From Polytrichum commune (lineage: Eukaryota > Streptophyta > Polytrichopsida > Polytrichales > Polytrichaceae): a DNA stretch of 64,000 bases. This document shows positions 57,441 to 63,174 of this stretch, piece after piece; the stretch's first letter is position 1, and every line of letters starts with the position of its first letter. The notes below the pieces were generated by a model. The model saw only the letters and a program-made list of their open reading frames with translations. It was not told the DNA's origin and ran no database searches. The stretch lies in contig OX485809.1 of assembly GCA_950295325.1 (NCBI GenBank), forward strand, positions 37,763,081 to 37,827,080, in the 5' to 3' direction. Position numbers and translations under genes: made by a program.

Positions 57441-58259
57441 CTAATTAAGCCCCGGCCTTAAAACTAAGTCCCCTAACTAATTCCCTACCTAATCCCACTA
57501 ATTTCATTAAGTTCCCTAACTAATTTCCCTACCTAATTCCACTAATTCCCCTAAGTCCCCTCCTAAGTCCCACATTCTTCCAAGCTCTAAAAGCTCAAAA
57601 TCCTAGAGAGAGAGAGAGAGAAGGAAGAGAGGAAGGAAGAAGAGGAGAGGGCACCCAAGACCACAAACCCCTTAACCTTCTCCTACTTAGTAGGACCTTA
57701 TCCTATCCACTAAACCCTCACCCCCTAAACCAACAAGAACATGTTCTAAATCAACCATTTAAATCCAAGGCCCTTCCCCTTGCTTCATCAAACACTACTC
57801 ACTTAACCAAAACACTCCCTAATGCCACTAAGCTTCTAATTAACCACACGAAATAGGCTTAAGGCCTAAAACAATAAATCCACACCAAGCCTCACTCTTT
57901 TTATACTTTTGATTGTTTCAATAACAACTTCAAATGCAATTTTAAGTAAATTCTAAGCATAAAACAAATATGAGCAACCATTTTGGGCTCATACGAGGTG
58001 AGGAAGATGATAATTCTAATCGACAAGGAGCTCCTAAGCCCATGATTATAGTTCTTATTGCCTGACTTCGTTCATAGTTCACTACTTTCATCCATTGAAG
58101 TACAATTTCTATCTGCATATCTCTAAAATGTTCACAGTGAAAATATTAACCTAAAATTTTGGCTCACAATAGCATTACTCTTTGTTTTTAAAACAAAATC
58201 CTAGAAGAGGCATATCATTTAAGAACAAAAATACTATTTCTCTAGGTTCTAAGAAGAAT
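57441..58259. other. non-coding; short tandem words and GA tract
   Basis: CCCTAACTAATTCCC and CTAATTCCACTAATTCC words repeat at 57470-57560. An AGAGAGAG tract lies at 57605-57625. No coding region. Confidence 0.45.
57899..57905 (-). promoter_or_regulatory. TATA box candidate, minus strand
   Basis: On the minus strand the sequence reads CAAAAGTATAAAAAGAGTGA, a good plant TATA box in a promoter-like setting. Downstream (towards lower coordinates) come a purine-rich leader, the 47-bp minisatellite and the 55329-55787 frame. It could be the promoter of a retroelement LTR. Confidence 0.3.
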
Positions 58260-58545
58260 CCCCATGGTCGTCATTGAGCATTGTTATCATATCACAACAA
58301 TTGATGACATGTGAATTGGATGGAACTAACACATTTGTTGTCAAGTTTTATCTCTAAACCTGAGGTCCCCCCTTTTTGCTACATCTACCTTTACTTTAGA
58401 TTTCTCAATAGCCTTTTTGCATGTACACACTAGAGGAAAACAATTCCTCTCCCATGAATGCTAATGCCTCAAATAATTCTCCTTGCTTATATGCTCACGT
58501 TGGTTCATATGTGGCATGAAAGTCCACCCCCCAAACATGGAACCA
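58260..58545 (+). repeat. dispersed repeat family R1, copy b (partial)
   Basis: Carries GTGAATTGGATGGAACTAAC, CTACATCTACCTTTACTTTA, AATAGCCTTTTTGCATGTAC and TTCATATGTGGCATGAAAGT, ending in a C-run, in the same order as 20960-21205. The left 450 bp of copy a are absent. Confidence 0.65.
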
Positions 58546-59431: not shown

Positions 59432-59458
59432 CGTTAAAGGACCGTATGTCCAATTCGG
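59432..59458 (+). repeat. left terminal inverted repeat
   Basis: CGTTAAAGGACCGTATGTC followed by CAATTCGG. It differs from the right repeat (reverse-complemented) by one base, C against A at position 20. It contains the TTAA at 59434-59437 and one recombinase-arm-like GACCGTATGTC, without the opposing arm seen at the right end. Confidence 0.9.
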
Positions 59459-59484
59459 CCAATTTTTGAGCCCTTTTTTTGGGT

Positions 59485-59590
59485 AGAATCGGCAGCTGAG
59501 GTGGACTGCCGATTCTGCCAGTCATAATCGGCCAGGCCTGCCGATTCGGTGATCGTATTTTGTAAACCGTATTCCGTATATCGTATATAA
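59485..59590. repeat. left subterminal structures: hairpin and CCGTAT iterons
   Basis: AGAATCGGCAG (59485-59495) and CTGCCGATTCT (59506-59516) form a perfect 11-bp stem. AATCGGC/GCCGATT pair again around 59526-59546. ACCGTATTCCGTATATCG at 59566-59583 iterates the CCGTAT core of the TIR three times. These are plausible protein-binding or 3' processing sites of the element. Confidence 0.65.
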
Positions 59591-60039
59591 ATGCCATTTG
59601 AATTTGACGAGCTTCCCGCGCATGAGACAGTACTACGTACCCGATGGAAATGTACTGACTGTAGGCTTTTCCTTTGATTGTTGATATTAATTGTGGTTTC
59701 CTTATGACTAGTGTTCACTCAATTCTTGTTGTGTGTTACACTGATGGTGAAGAAATGTCCAGTATACTCAGAACTCACGTTTACACAACATCAAATATAA
59801 GTGAGTGATTAATAAACAGAGTGTACCGTCTTGCAAATCGGTTCTTGGCAGCAAAATTGGTTCATTCAACGTTCACTTAGTATCCATCTCGTGTCATCAA
59901 TCATCAATCAAAACCAAAACCTCTAACAATGAAAGCATCCACCATCCAATCATGCGATCACAATTACTGAACTCAAAGAGGCTTCTCAATCCACAATTAC
60001 TGAACTCAAGGCTGCATGTAAAAACCTCGGCTGCTTCGA

Positions 60040-60195
60040 ATCATTCACAGTTTGGAATCGTTCTTACTAAATCTATCACAGTTTTGAATCGTTCTCACTA
60101 AATCTATCAATGTTTTTTCACACAATCGATCTCACTTAGTTAATCACTGCTTCGAATCGATCTCACTAAATCTATCGATCACTGCTTCGAATCGT
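60040..60195. repeat. short tandem repeats downstream of the recombinase stop
   Basis: Words GAATCGTTCTCACTAAATCT and ATCACTGCTTCGAATCGATC recur about every 35-45 bases, four to five times, ending just before the stop codon at 60198. They would lie in the 3' untranslated region of the minus-strand transcript. Confidence 0.65.
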
Positions 60196-60197
60196 TA

Positions 60198-62340
60198 TTA
60201 CTGGTTCTTCAAAGAGTTAAAAAACGCTGATGCTGACGCTGCATCTGGAATACTCAGCTGAATGGTACAATTACTGATATTCCCATGGAATACGTTGCTA
60301 ACATTACCGATGTTGTTAACACGGGAAATTTCAACTGCCTGCTTCTTGGAAGTAATCAGAGCTTCAATCTCTTGCTGAACATCGGAATTAGACCACCAAT
60401 CGTCCTCCTCAATCATCCGCTTGCAGTTCACATCAGGTGCAGGAACAAGTTGAGCAATCATTGCACGATCCTGGGCGTTAACAATTTCGGATCCATCTCT
60501 AACATCACAGATCGAAGAAGAAACCGATGGTGAAGGCATAATCGACTGGGGTTGCTTATTCTGAGATTCGTAAAATCTTCGCCGCTCATAATTGAGAGCT
60601 TGATGCCAAAAGATATCACCACCGGTGCCAGACACCGCACTGGCTATATTCTGGAGAGCACGCATTTCTATTCCATCTTCGTCTGTATTGTAACGCATAT
60701 AACCTTCTCGAGAATTGTGACCAGTAAGCTTCATTCCTATTTCGGCTGGCACTCCCATAGCATTCAAGCGGCTAACAGTGGTAACTCGAGCAGTCTTATT
60801 GGAGAAGCATCCAACATCACAACCCGGAATGTCTTGCACCATCTGCTTGAGCCACTTTGAAATGCTTTTTATTCCAACTCGAGATTTGGAGTACCACTTC
60901 AAACACAGCCAAGGAGTAAAATCAGCGCATGAAGGAAAACGACCGATTCATATACCAAATCACCTACCGGTTAGGAAGAGAAAAAATCCTAGCGAACTGG
61001 ATCTACCAAACCACCGAACTGGATCTTAAAACAAAAAGCCAGAAACATGGAATTGAACTACTTACAACCCCAGGATCACGTAGGATGCCATCTATTGGTC
61101 GCAGGAACAACGGATGAGGCCCTGGTTCATTAGGAAGCCACTTAGGGAGGTGCGCAAAGTACGTATCAAAAGTAAGAACCACATCTGGCAGGTAGCACGT
61201 AACTGGACGCCGAAGTTTCTCAGGCTGACAATGCTTTAGATCAATCTTATGGTTCTTAGATGATCTCTCGTCAAACCGAACGAATATGCCAAAGCGATCT
61301 TCAGAAAACTCAAAGTCGATATCACACAGATTATACAATTTTTGTTGAGCTCTCACACAAAAATTCACACTAACATAGAAGGCTAGTCGGAGTTGACAAC
61401 CACGCCTGTCCGATTTGGACATAAAAGCCTGGGCCAAGATCGCAACATCTTGCTCAGGAGTGAGCGCTGCAGTAACCCTCCGCTTACGTCCTACACCGGC
61501 CATTCCAGAATGTCGTGCTGATGTAGTGCATGCAACACATGCTTTCATGAACCGAGGATCCTCCAAAATGTAAAACTCCTCCTCAGGTTTGGAAGTCTCC
61601 ACACTTCTCTGGCAACATCTGGCTCGGATGATTCGGCCAATCGCCCGCAGTAGTCCGACAAGCGTTTCACCAGGGTAGAGCTTCCCATCTCTACGTTGGA
61701 CTTGAAGAAAAAATGTTGACAATTGTTCGTTCAGTAAGGCGCATGAATTCTCGAACATGTCTTCAATAGTATCTTGGCTGGTAATGCCAGAAATGATCCG
61801 CCAGTCATTGAATCGATTACGAGCCCAATTGTCGAGATACGCAGACTTCCTGTGACCGCCCTTGGCAACTATATTAACCTCCTCCTTTTCAAGCTGCCTA
61901 AAACCTTTTCGAAGATACTCCAAAGCGGCATCAGAAGTTGGCTCAGGAACATCGACCAGATTCGCATCAGCTGCAGGCTCAGAAATCTCAAAAACGTCTG
62001 CCTCGCCTCCTAAGATATCAGCGACTTCAAGATAATCTTCCCCGTCAATGAGCCAAGCAGGATCCTCGCCAGGATCAATCTCTCTAACACCGTCAAGATC
62101 ACCAGAAATGCGCCAGAAACCACACGGATCATGTGAAACAGGCTTAGAAACAATAGTTTCTGTTGTTGGAAGCTCCTCCGTTGGTTTGCGAAGTAAACCG
62201 TTGTTCACACTCTCTGACTCCAAAATTAGAGATGTACTTGGCGATGCACCGCTGTCCCCCGCATCCAACGCCGAAATCACAGGTGTAATTGCCAAGGAAT
62301 TGGACACATCCTTCAACGGAACACGATCAATTGACGTCAT
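60198..62340 (-). CDS. Crypton-like tyrosine recombinase (DUF3504-type), two exons
   Basis: Exon 1 is 62340-61066 (425 codons from the first ATG), exon 2 is 60896-60198. The intron 61065-60897 (169 bp) has GTAAGT at its donor and AG at its acceptor, and splicing joins ...GILRDPGV to WYSKSRVGIKSI in phase 0, restoring a block conserved in DUF3504 proteins. The product is 657 residues. About 1-150 is acidic and disordered. 165-245 is a core-binding domain (NWARNRFNDWR, LYPGETLVGLLRAI). 260-500 is the catalytic domain: R330 in NFCVRAQQK, K459-x-x-R462 in NKTAR, H485 in LTGH, Y494 in YMRY. R-to-H is 23 and H-to-Tyr 9 residues, as in XerD. K459 replaces the usual His of HxxR. The C-terminus NVFHGNISNCTIQLSI resembles the Asn/Cys-rich tails of animal DUF3504 proteins. 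Expected role: DNA cutting and rejoining through a 3'-phosphotyrosine. All key residues are intact, so it could be active. Confidence 0.82.
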
Positions 62341-62447
62341 TGCTGTCAATCGGCACAAAACAAGCAAAAAGAAATTGAAATGGACGTAAAACTGCTTCAC
62401 GGTGACGTCGATGAAAGTTCGGAGGAGGTATATGGTTTCCGTAGAGA

Positions 62448-62485
62448 TACGGTCTCGACCGTATGTCCGAATTTGACATACGGTC
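62448..62485. other. loxP-like recombination site candidate at the right end
   Basis: GACCGTATGTC (62457-62467) and GACATACGGTC (62475-62485) are perfect 11-bp inverted arms around the 7-bp core CGAATTT. This is the architecture of tyrosine-recombinase crossover sites (two inverted arms, 6-8-bp core). TACGGTC at 62448-62454 adds a third box, inverted to the first arm. The second arm is part of the right TIR. The left TIR holds one arm and a similar core (CAATTCG) but no second arm. Confidence 0.6.
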
Positions 62486-62493
62486 CTTTAACG
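62467..62493 (-). repeat. right terminal inverted repeat
   Basis: Plus strand CCGAATTTGACATACGG then TCCTTTAACG, the reverse complement of the left repeat except for one base. It ends TTAACG, mirroring the left CGTTAA. The first ATG of the recombinase gene lies about 127 bp inside it, so promoter and recombination site share this end. Confidence 0.9.
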
Positions 62494-62495
62494 CC

Positions 62496-62611
62496 AGAGA
62501 AGCTGCAGGGTAGTGCCGATTCGGCAGTATGGTTCGGCCAGCTGGCTCGCCCTACGGGCTCGCCAGTGACCTCACCATACTGCCGAATCGGCACTACCCT
62601 GCAGCTTCTCT
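62496..62611. repeat. perfect palindrome, 38-bp arms, abutting the element
   Basis: Arms 62496-62533 and 62574-62611 are perfectly complementary (AGAGAAGCTGCAGGGTAGTG, CCGATTCGGCAGTATGG and T on the left) around a 40-nt loop rich in GGCTCGCC. It begins two bases after the right TIR. The CCGATTCGGC motif also occurs inside the left end of the element (59507-59547). It may be a separate foldback element, part of the recombinase element, or its preferred target. Confidence 0.88.
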
Positions 62612-63174
62612 AGTACGTTATGAGCTAGCCTCGCTCCCTCCCTCGCTCGCTGGCAGGCTCGCTGGCAGGCTCGCTGGCAGGCTCGCTCGCGCGCGGGCGG
62701 GCGGACGGGCGGAGGCGGCTGGCTGCTACCGCTCCTGCGGCGTATGTGCGTAGGAAGGTAGGTAGGAAGGAAGGTAGGTATATCGCCACCACGGCCACTA
62801 CGCCGGCTGCCGCTGCCAAGTGGCGGTTCCTGGTCTTCGTCAGACTTGCCAATCCCGGGGCTTCAAAAGGACAAGGCGACCAGCCCCAGCTCCACAGAAT
62901 CGCCCCCCTTCTGCGCAGACAGGACTCTGCCACGTGGCACCTTCTGTCAGGGGGCCATTTCCCCAAAACGCCACAAAGAGTCCCCATCCCCTCCCCCTTC
63001 CCCTCCTCCAACATTGTCAAGATAGATCAGTGATCGGGGAGATTTTTGGGCATAAGTTAATCGGTTGAGATCCTAGTGTTTGCATGTCCAACTGGTTACA
63101 TGTTGACATCTTTCGGTTTTCCTGTATTGATTTGGGGTATATTTCATATATTCCTCTAAAGTGATCGGTAATTC
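62612..63174. other. GC-rich, CpG-rich stretch with short tandem repeats
   Basis: GGCAGGCTCGCT is repeated three to four times at about 62645-62692, followed by GC-rich DNA and GGAAGGTAGGTA words at 62752-62780. GC stays high to about 63000. Arg/Ala-rich frames on both strands are products of composition. It could be a CpG-rich promoter, but no gene follows. Confidence 0.5.

Follow-up and report, generated by a model that had tools for sequence, protein, structure and literature searches.

In the cited sections of Kojima and Jurka (2011; PMC3212892), Cryptons (CryptonF, CryptonS, CryptonA and CryptonI) are described as DNA transposons that are mobilized by a tyrosine recombinase and carry no terminal inverted repeats (TIRs), but have direct repeats of 4-6 bp at their ends, which serve as substrates. 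Table 1 of that paper contains no plant, and the legend of its tree includes a Chlamydomonas sequence. For DIRS1-like retroelements, the cited part of PMC3266345 describes internal complementary regions that meet at the junction of a circular form, and integration at a short matching core without target duplication; the internal complementary regions are explained there via a rolling-circle intermediate of a retroelement. Here, a mobile element is described that lies in a stretch of 64,000 nucleotides from the moss Polytrichum commune (contig OX485809.1, positions 37,763,081 to 37,827,080; hereafter the window), and the 408-Mb assembly of 64 contigs to which the window belongs was searched for copies. 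The evidence slightly favours reading it as a Crypton/DUF3504-type DNA transposon without reverse transcriptase, the ends of which would be united by an internal splint.

The boundaries of the copies were set at the points where aligned copies with differing flanks stop being alike, and the differences between flanks were judged copy against copy in the family of the window element (family A) and in a second family (family C). The genome search was carried out with the 3062 bases from 59432 to 62493, which had been taken for the element when the window was read from its sequence alone (the sequence-only reading), and three more near-full or gene-bearing copies with 98-99% identity could be identified, giving four in all at 98-100%, together with five short matches to about the first 118 bases of the element. 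The left ends of 9/9 family A copies start at (C)GTTAAAGG and are preceded by DNA that differs from copy to copy; in L008, the C before the left end is replaced by an A. On the right side, the likeness between the seven copies whose right side is intact (L001, L002, L003 and L005-L008) extends 123 bases beyond 62493, through a long hairpin (CCAGAGAAGCTGCAGGG...CCCTGCAGCTTCTCTAGTAC) to TAGTAC at 62616, and the copies diverge only after this point. L010 and L004 also stop at TAGTAC. Because all nine copies run on to this sequence, the right repeat is internal and the element spans 59433-62616, with base 59432 (C) being common to the target and the element end.

The two ends proposed by the sequence-only reading were therefore confirmed on the left to within one base and had to be moved on the right, and the further copies it had asked for were found, with ends past its right 27-bp repeat. 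A transposon with 27-bp TIRs at 59432 and 62493 would account for the presence of the repeats and of the gene between them; it is very improbable, since all family A copies, among them five without a gene (255-265 bp), stop at TAGTAC, and the boundary at 62493 was rejected for this reason. A domesticated host gene flanked by repeats through chance, the alternative named in the same reading, would have parallels in the domesticated DUF3504 genes known in animals (cited section of PMC3212892), but is hardly credible given that the catalytic residues are intact, that nearly identical copies lie at unrelated sites and that small non-autonomous copies exist. It was dismissed on the basis of the copies, which support a mobile element and not a single-copy domesticated gene. 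Not every near-full copy is intact, as L002 (C6:38542917-38545977) has a frame break near recombinase residue 351. Genome-wide, the left-end pattern of family A has 14 matches, nine of which are left ends; an additional match to this pattern, L068, was read and appears unrelated.

The element is built in the order L, recombinase gene (minus strand), L', R', loop and R (...TAGTAC), where L is the left end, L' an internal inverted copy of it, and R' and R are the inner and outer arms of the terminal hairpin. The inverted repeats are real, as had been read from the sequence: they form a pair of 30 nt (59432-59461 and 62464-62493) with 93% complementarity, and the 23-nt degenerate core of this pair has two matches in the window, both at these sites, with a maximum of 0 in 100 shuffles. 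The arms of the terminal hairpin are perfect over 38 bp (fold z-score -13.1). On the opposite strand, L'R' reads ...CTGCAGCTTCTCT-GGC-GTTAAAGGACC..., and a circle in which R is joined to L would read ...CTGCAGCTTCTCT-AGTAC-GTTAAAGGACC...; the joint of its own circle is thus present in the element in inverted form, with mismatches over that stretch at the joint alone. For the expected joints from R to L (...CTCTAGTAC/GTTAAAGG... and ...GTTACCTAATAC/GTAACCGG..., with the slash at the joint), the best 24-mer agreed with the reverse complement of L'R' at 23/24 positions in family A and at 22/24 in family C, compared with maxima of 17 and 18 in 2000 shuffles.

What remains in the short family A copies is the hairpin, some 118 bases of the left side and some 12 bases of L', the latter being rearranged in L006. 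When a whole copy of this kind is folded as a single strand, L is paired with L' from nucleotide 1 and R' with R; next to the foot of the L:L' stem, the AGTAC tail has no partner. In the folds of family C and family A short copies, nucleotide 1 lies at the foot of L:L', and the R':R stem adjoins this foot and leaves a 3' tail of 5-6 nt (z-scores -11.9 and -15.5).

With a Riccia sorocarpa relative of the recombinase as query, 55 matches to related recombinases were found in the genome, which are exon pieces and therefore correspond to fewer genes. Two further families with ends of this kind are termed B and C. The family C protein shares 28% identity with that of family A over 172 aligned residues, and the aligned residues of the family B protein are 32% identical to family A and 53% to family C. 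The catalytic-site motifs are retained in families A, B and C, and all three have a TARTAC end and a hairpin on the upstream side of the gene. In family C, the hairpin ends in GGTTACC-TAATAC and the internal copy reads GGTTACC-GGAC-GTAACCGGTTGGCCGCTTTG. The left end of this family, GTAACCGGTTGGCCGCTTTG, was read off the internal repeat as a prediction before the left flanks were seen; in the fetched flanks, GTAACCGGTTGGCCGCTTTG is located two bases inward of the position from which the copies C1 and C2 agree.

For family C, the 20-base L/L' word was found at 216 sites per strand (432 in the genome, with at most two mismatches), while the reversed control gave 0. Of the 100 sites at the head of the list, 74 are arranged as 37 convergent pairs with a spacing of 160, 169, 225, 232 or 251 bp, a count made from hand-transcribed coordinates, and no neighbours closer than 400 bp occur in another orientation. 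L, L', R' and R are kept in 16/16 of the short family C copies read, which were picked from these pairs, and the copies end in TAATAC (15) or TACTAC (1). The flanks just outside GTAACCGG and TAATAC (in one case TACTAC) are different in all 16. Of the family C copies, 17/18 retain the mismatched joint, in which TAATAC faces GGAC or GGAT, and the 16 nt of R and R' beside it are identical in 11/18. The R/R' sequence itself varies, with CAACAAAACGGTTACC in both arms of C2 versus CAATAAAACGATTACC in most short copies. The small non-autonomous copies of family C (e.g., C1:10798553-10798732) far outnumber those of family A.

In family B, the hairpin has 47-nt arms with 87-89% complementarity, the end is GCTACC-TAGTAC and the inside reads GCTACC-ATAC-GTAGCCGATGAAGG. 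No left end was found when the predicted word was sought in 2 kb of additional sequence from two copies, and a genome-wide search with the exact 17-mer gave six sites, all of which are internal L' of family B copies and two of which form a near-duplicate pair at C7:30.50 and 30.53 Mb. The copies of this family (L041, L042, L043 and L032; around L041:4545) fall into two types, which downstream of the gene have no mutual blastn match beyond CACAAAATATG; they are perhaps larger elements with other cargo, or nested insertions. Another recombinase family (L017 and L044) has sequence repeats close to its gene; the part read shows no terminal hairpin, and this family may use other ends.

The insertion sites were compared for 18 family C copies, in which position -1 is C in 17/18, +1 is R in 18/18, +2 is T in 16/18 and +3 is A in 14/18. 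For the nine family A copies and the two gene-bearing family C copies, the latter being contained in the 18, C was found in 10/11, followed by R in 9, W in 11 and W in 9. Insertions thus favour C/RTA or C/RTW, and the joint of the element itself is C/GTA or C/GTT, so that the target resembles the joint, as is expected for an exchange by a tyrosine recombinase across a short core. No consistent target-site duplication was present in the nine family A and two family C copies checked. L004 alone shows a possible duplication of 8 bp (ACGTTGAT), but its joined flank reads CGTTGATCGTTGAT, which makes a tandem target equally likely. A short core match at integration without consistent duplication corresponds to the description of DIRS1-like elements.

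The spliced recombinase has a length of 657 amino acids and is the only gene between L and L'. In agreement with the sequence-only reading, exactly one gene is enclosed, and R330, K459, R462, H485 and Y494 are all present, as is required of a tyrosine recombinase. The Riccia sorocarpa protein P0002 aligns straight over the splice (WYSKSRVG / WYAKSAVG), and the lysine in the SK(N) stretch is invariant across seven aligned relatives. Pfam DUF3504 matches 4/7 of the aligned proteins (best E 9.6e-8) and Phage_integrase 2/7. The closest named relatives are R1sor_010268, R1sor_003432, R1sor_008025 and R1sor_000615 of Riccia sorocarpa, the best of which has 33% identity over 68% of the query, and this species is the only one among the organism-named relatives. 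Cre and the Tn1549 integrase were found at ranks 1, 2 and 5 of 151 fold matches of the Riccia relative (best E 2.9e-3); as the underlying structure model is poor (predicted local distance difference test score 47.8), these matches are no more than supportive. NCBIfam gave no match for two proteins of A1, and a PDB sequence search with A1 returned no tyrosine recombinase. Apart from the recombinase frames, no stop-to-stop open reading frame of more than 117 amino acids overlaps the element, which leaves no room for a reverse transcriptase. The four copies at 98-100% identity and the Riccia sorocarpa relatives bear out the earlier assignment as a Crypton-like (DUF3504-related) tyrosine recombinase in a mobile element. 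The features are listed in Table 1.

Table 1. Features of the recombinase element, in positions of the window.
Feature	Position	Strand	Remarks
Whole element	59433..62616	- (gene orientation)	3184 bp; limits from copy alignment
L, left end (GTTAAAGGACCGTATGTCC...), downstream of the gene	59433..59461	+	copy alignment
Exon 2 (K459, R462, H485, Y494)	60198..60896	-	splice backed by the alignment of Riccia protein P0002
Intron, 169 nt, GT-AG	60897..61065	-	retained in 4/4 gene-bearing copies
Exon 1 (R330, core-binding region)	61066..62340, ATG 62340	-	
GACCGTATGTC-7 nt-GACATACGGTC, perfect 11-7-11 inverted repeat overlapping L'	62457..62485		laid out like the sites bound by tyrosine recombinases
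L', internal inverted copy of L (right TIR of the sequence-only reading)	62464..62492	-	
GCC, unpaired linker that separates L' from R' and faces AGTAC at the joint	62493..62495		
R', inner arm of the terminal hairpin	62496..62533	+	
R, outer arm of the terminal hairpin	62574..62611	+	
AGTAC, unpaired right tail, true right end	62612..62616	+	same end in 9/9 family A copies

In the surroundings of the element, a dispersed repeat is located at 58249-58531, to the left of the transposon and outside of it, with stretches about 70-75% alike in L038 and L051. Directly to the right of the insertion, short GC-rich tandem copies (GCTCGCTGGCAG) occupy 62633-62700. An Rfam search of the window gave nothing at gathering scores. 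Seven large contigs of 42-78 Mb sum to about 406 of the 408 Mb of the assembly, which suggests seven chromosomes.

From the architecture, which can be read directly from the copies, we infer a mechanism in which one strand of the element would be freed in replication or excision, or would be extruded as a cruciform. The strand would fold by pairing of L with L' and of R with R', and the internal L'R' would act as a splint that places both ends side by side, with TARTAC as an unpaired tail where they meet. The recombinase would then join the ends into a circle, and the circle would recombine its C/GTW with a like sequence elsewhere. Integron attC sites are single strands that fold into two stems, between which the spacer at the point of exchange stays unpaired, and that are substrates of a tyrosine recombinase in this form; they are bacterial, and the cassette has no recombinase of its own. 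That the transposon moves via a self-splinted single strand, as an attC-like folded substrate for its tyrosine recombinase, is proposed tentatively. The intron is kept in 4/4 gene-bearing copies, which were thus not made from the spliced gene transcript.

In a conventional Crypton, the recombinase would act on double-stranded ends, and L' and the hairpin would be binding or regulatory sites or by-products. The 11-7-11 repeat that overlaps L' upstream of the gene resembles a recombinase-binding operator when compared with the tyrosine recombinase site format in the cited part of PMC3212892, and C/RTA at both ends fits the short direct repeats that serve as Crypton substrates in the same source. 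In the autonomous element, this repeat may serve as an operator for the recombinase. It is present in L001-L003 and missing from L004 and from all five short family A copies, in four of which, those readable there, about 12 nt of L' are nevertheless retained by R' and R. A binding site alone would not need R' to adjoin L' with the same order and spacing as in the circle joint, nor would a conventional Crypton have foretold the unseen left end of family C, and this explanation is therefore considered unlikely. In family C, an inverted repeat (CAGGTGACC-9 nt-GGTCACCTG) lies between L' and the gene at L045:2723-2749, similar to the 11-7-11 repeat of family A, and is a possible recombinase operator.

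A DIRS1-like derivative without reverse transcriptase, which would move via RNA with the enzyme acting in trans and for which L'R' would be an ordinary DIRS region, appears improbable. The internal complementary region, the missing target duplication and the short joint agree with the description of DIRS1 in the cited part of PMC3266345. However, the intron argues against a spliced sense RNA, an antisense or unspliced RNA being possible; the DUF3504-like recombinase speaks against such a derivative; L agrees with the reverse complement of R, ungapped, at only 8/30 positions in family A and 12/30 in family C, unlike the inverted terminal repeats of DIRS; and families A and C would both have to be without reverse transcriptase. 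Furthermore, Pfam Dam (PF05869), which we take to be the methyltransferase domain of DIRS, had no match in the genome, in a search for which E. coli was the only control genome giving a signal and the sensitivity for DIRS was not established.

Several observations weigh against the proposed Crypton-type transposon with an L'R' splint or against its generality. L004 is gene-bearing and has lost L' and R', which may be a deletion after insertion, and the short family A copies have just about 12 nt of L'. In family C, R and R' differ by 1-2 nt beside the joint in 7/18 copies; 26 of the first 100 L/L' sites listed have no listed partner, partners with mismatches having fallen outside these 100; and the selection of the 16 short copies from the L/L' pairs counts in the same direction. 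The likeness within the palindrome can come from gene conversion instead of selection, and L078 has such a change at the joint. The full plan is present in two families (A and C) and its right half only in B. A hairpin scan of 12 loci, in which the controls L001 and L046 were positive, gave no strong hairpin in L015, L016, L017, L027, L031, L034, L037, L038, L040 and L044, where the stretches may stop short of the ends; a stricter earlier scan without these controls had given nothing. For DUF3504, the window protein scores 15.2 bits and Riccia P0002 24.7 bits, with a cut-off of 29.7.

An internal inverted copy of the joint has previously been described in retrotransposons and is found here in an element without reverse transcriptase. 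Tyrosine recombinase retrotransposons have been proposed to be a Crypton joined to reverse transcriptase and RNase H of the Gypsy/long terminal repeat type (Poulter and Butler, 2015, as quoted in PMC6681497), and a like statement on their origin is contained in PMC4157794. If the transposon does move as a self-splinted strand, DIRS-type ends are not a device of reverse transcription and could predate the reverse transcriptase, in a Crypton-like ancestor. Two divergent families of a single genome share the Crypton-type element with the DIRS end plan, and one of these families has many small copies. This makes it possible to test if the arrangement of the ends is older than the reverse transcriptase and if a splint functions at the DNA level. 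The host is a plant, as the sequence-only reading had assumed and the Riccia relatives also suggest, and these transposons with their many small non-autonomous copies are thereby extended to a plant lineage. In the literature searched by title and abstract, with most subscription journals outside its coverage, there was no paper on a plant Crypton with DIRS-type ends.

Compared with Cryptons, the element likewise has a tyrosine recombinase as its sole recognized enzyme, a probable relationship to DUF3504 and no reverse transcriptase, and it has a few bases common to both ends without a consistent target duplication. With C/GTA or C/GTT on the left and mostly C/RTA or C/RTW on the right, its ends form a 4-base near-repeat, and there is no TIR at the termini. 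It differs in having L, L'R' and a terminal hairpin with 38-bp arms, which are not described for Cryptons in the cited part of PMC3212892. The element shares with DIRS1-like elements a pair of internal complementary regions, both located near one end and meeting at a short circular junction, as well as a start that is mostly of the NTT type, a right extension and no target duplication. In contrast to them, the element contains no reverse transcriptase, RNase H or methyltransferase and keeps its intron, L and R do not form a pair of inverted repeats, the bases at the joint are mismatched (AGTAC opposite GCC) instead of forming a 3-base overlap, and the recombinase is Crypton/DUF3504-like. The likeness to integron attC, drawn from its description and not from sequence, lies in a folded strand with an unpaired joint between two stems. 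An ordinary TIR transposon would have inverted repeats at both ends and a target duplication; here, neither inverted repeats at both ends nor a consistent target duplication were found. The DNA-transposon-like ends of the sequence-only reading were accordingly given up, since the right repeat is one half of a DIRS1-like internal complementary region and the true right end follows it. The combination that is realized here is that of a Crypton-type recombinase and DIRS-type ends in an element lacking reverse transcriptase, and with moderate confidence the element is classified under the Crypton kind, as a DIRS-like end system run by a Crypton-type enzyme.

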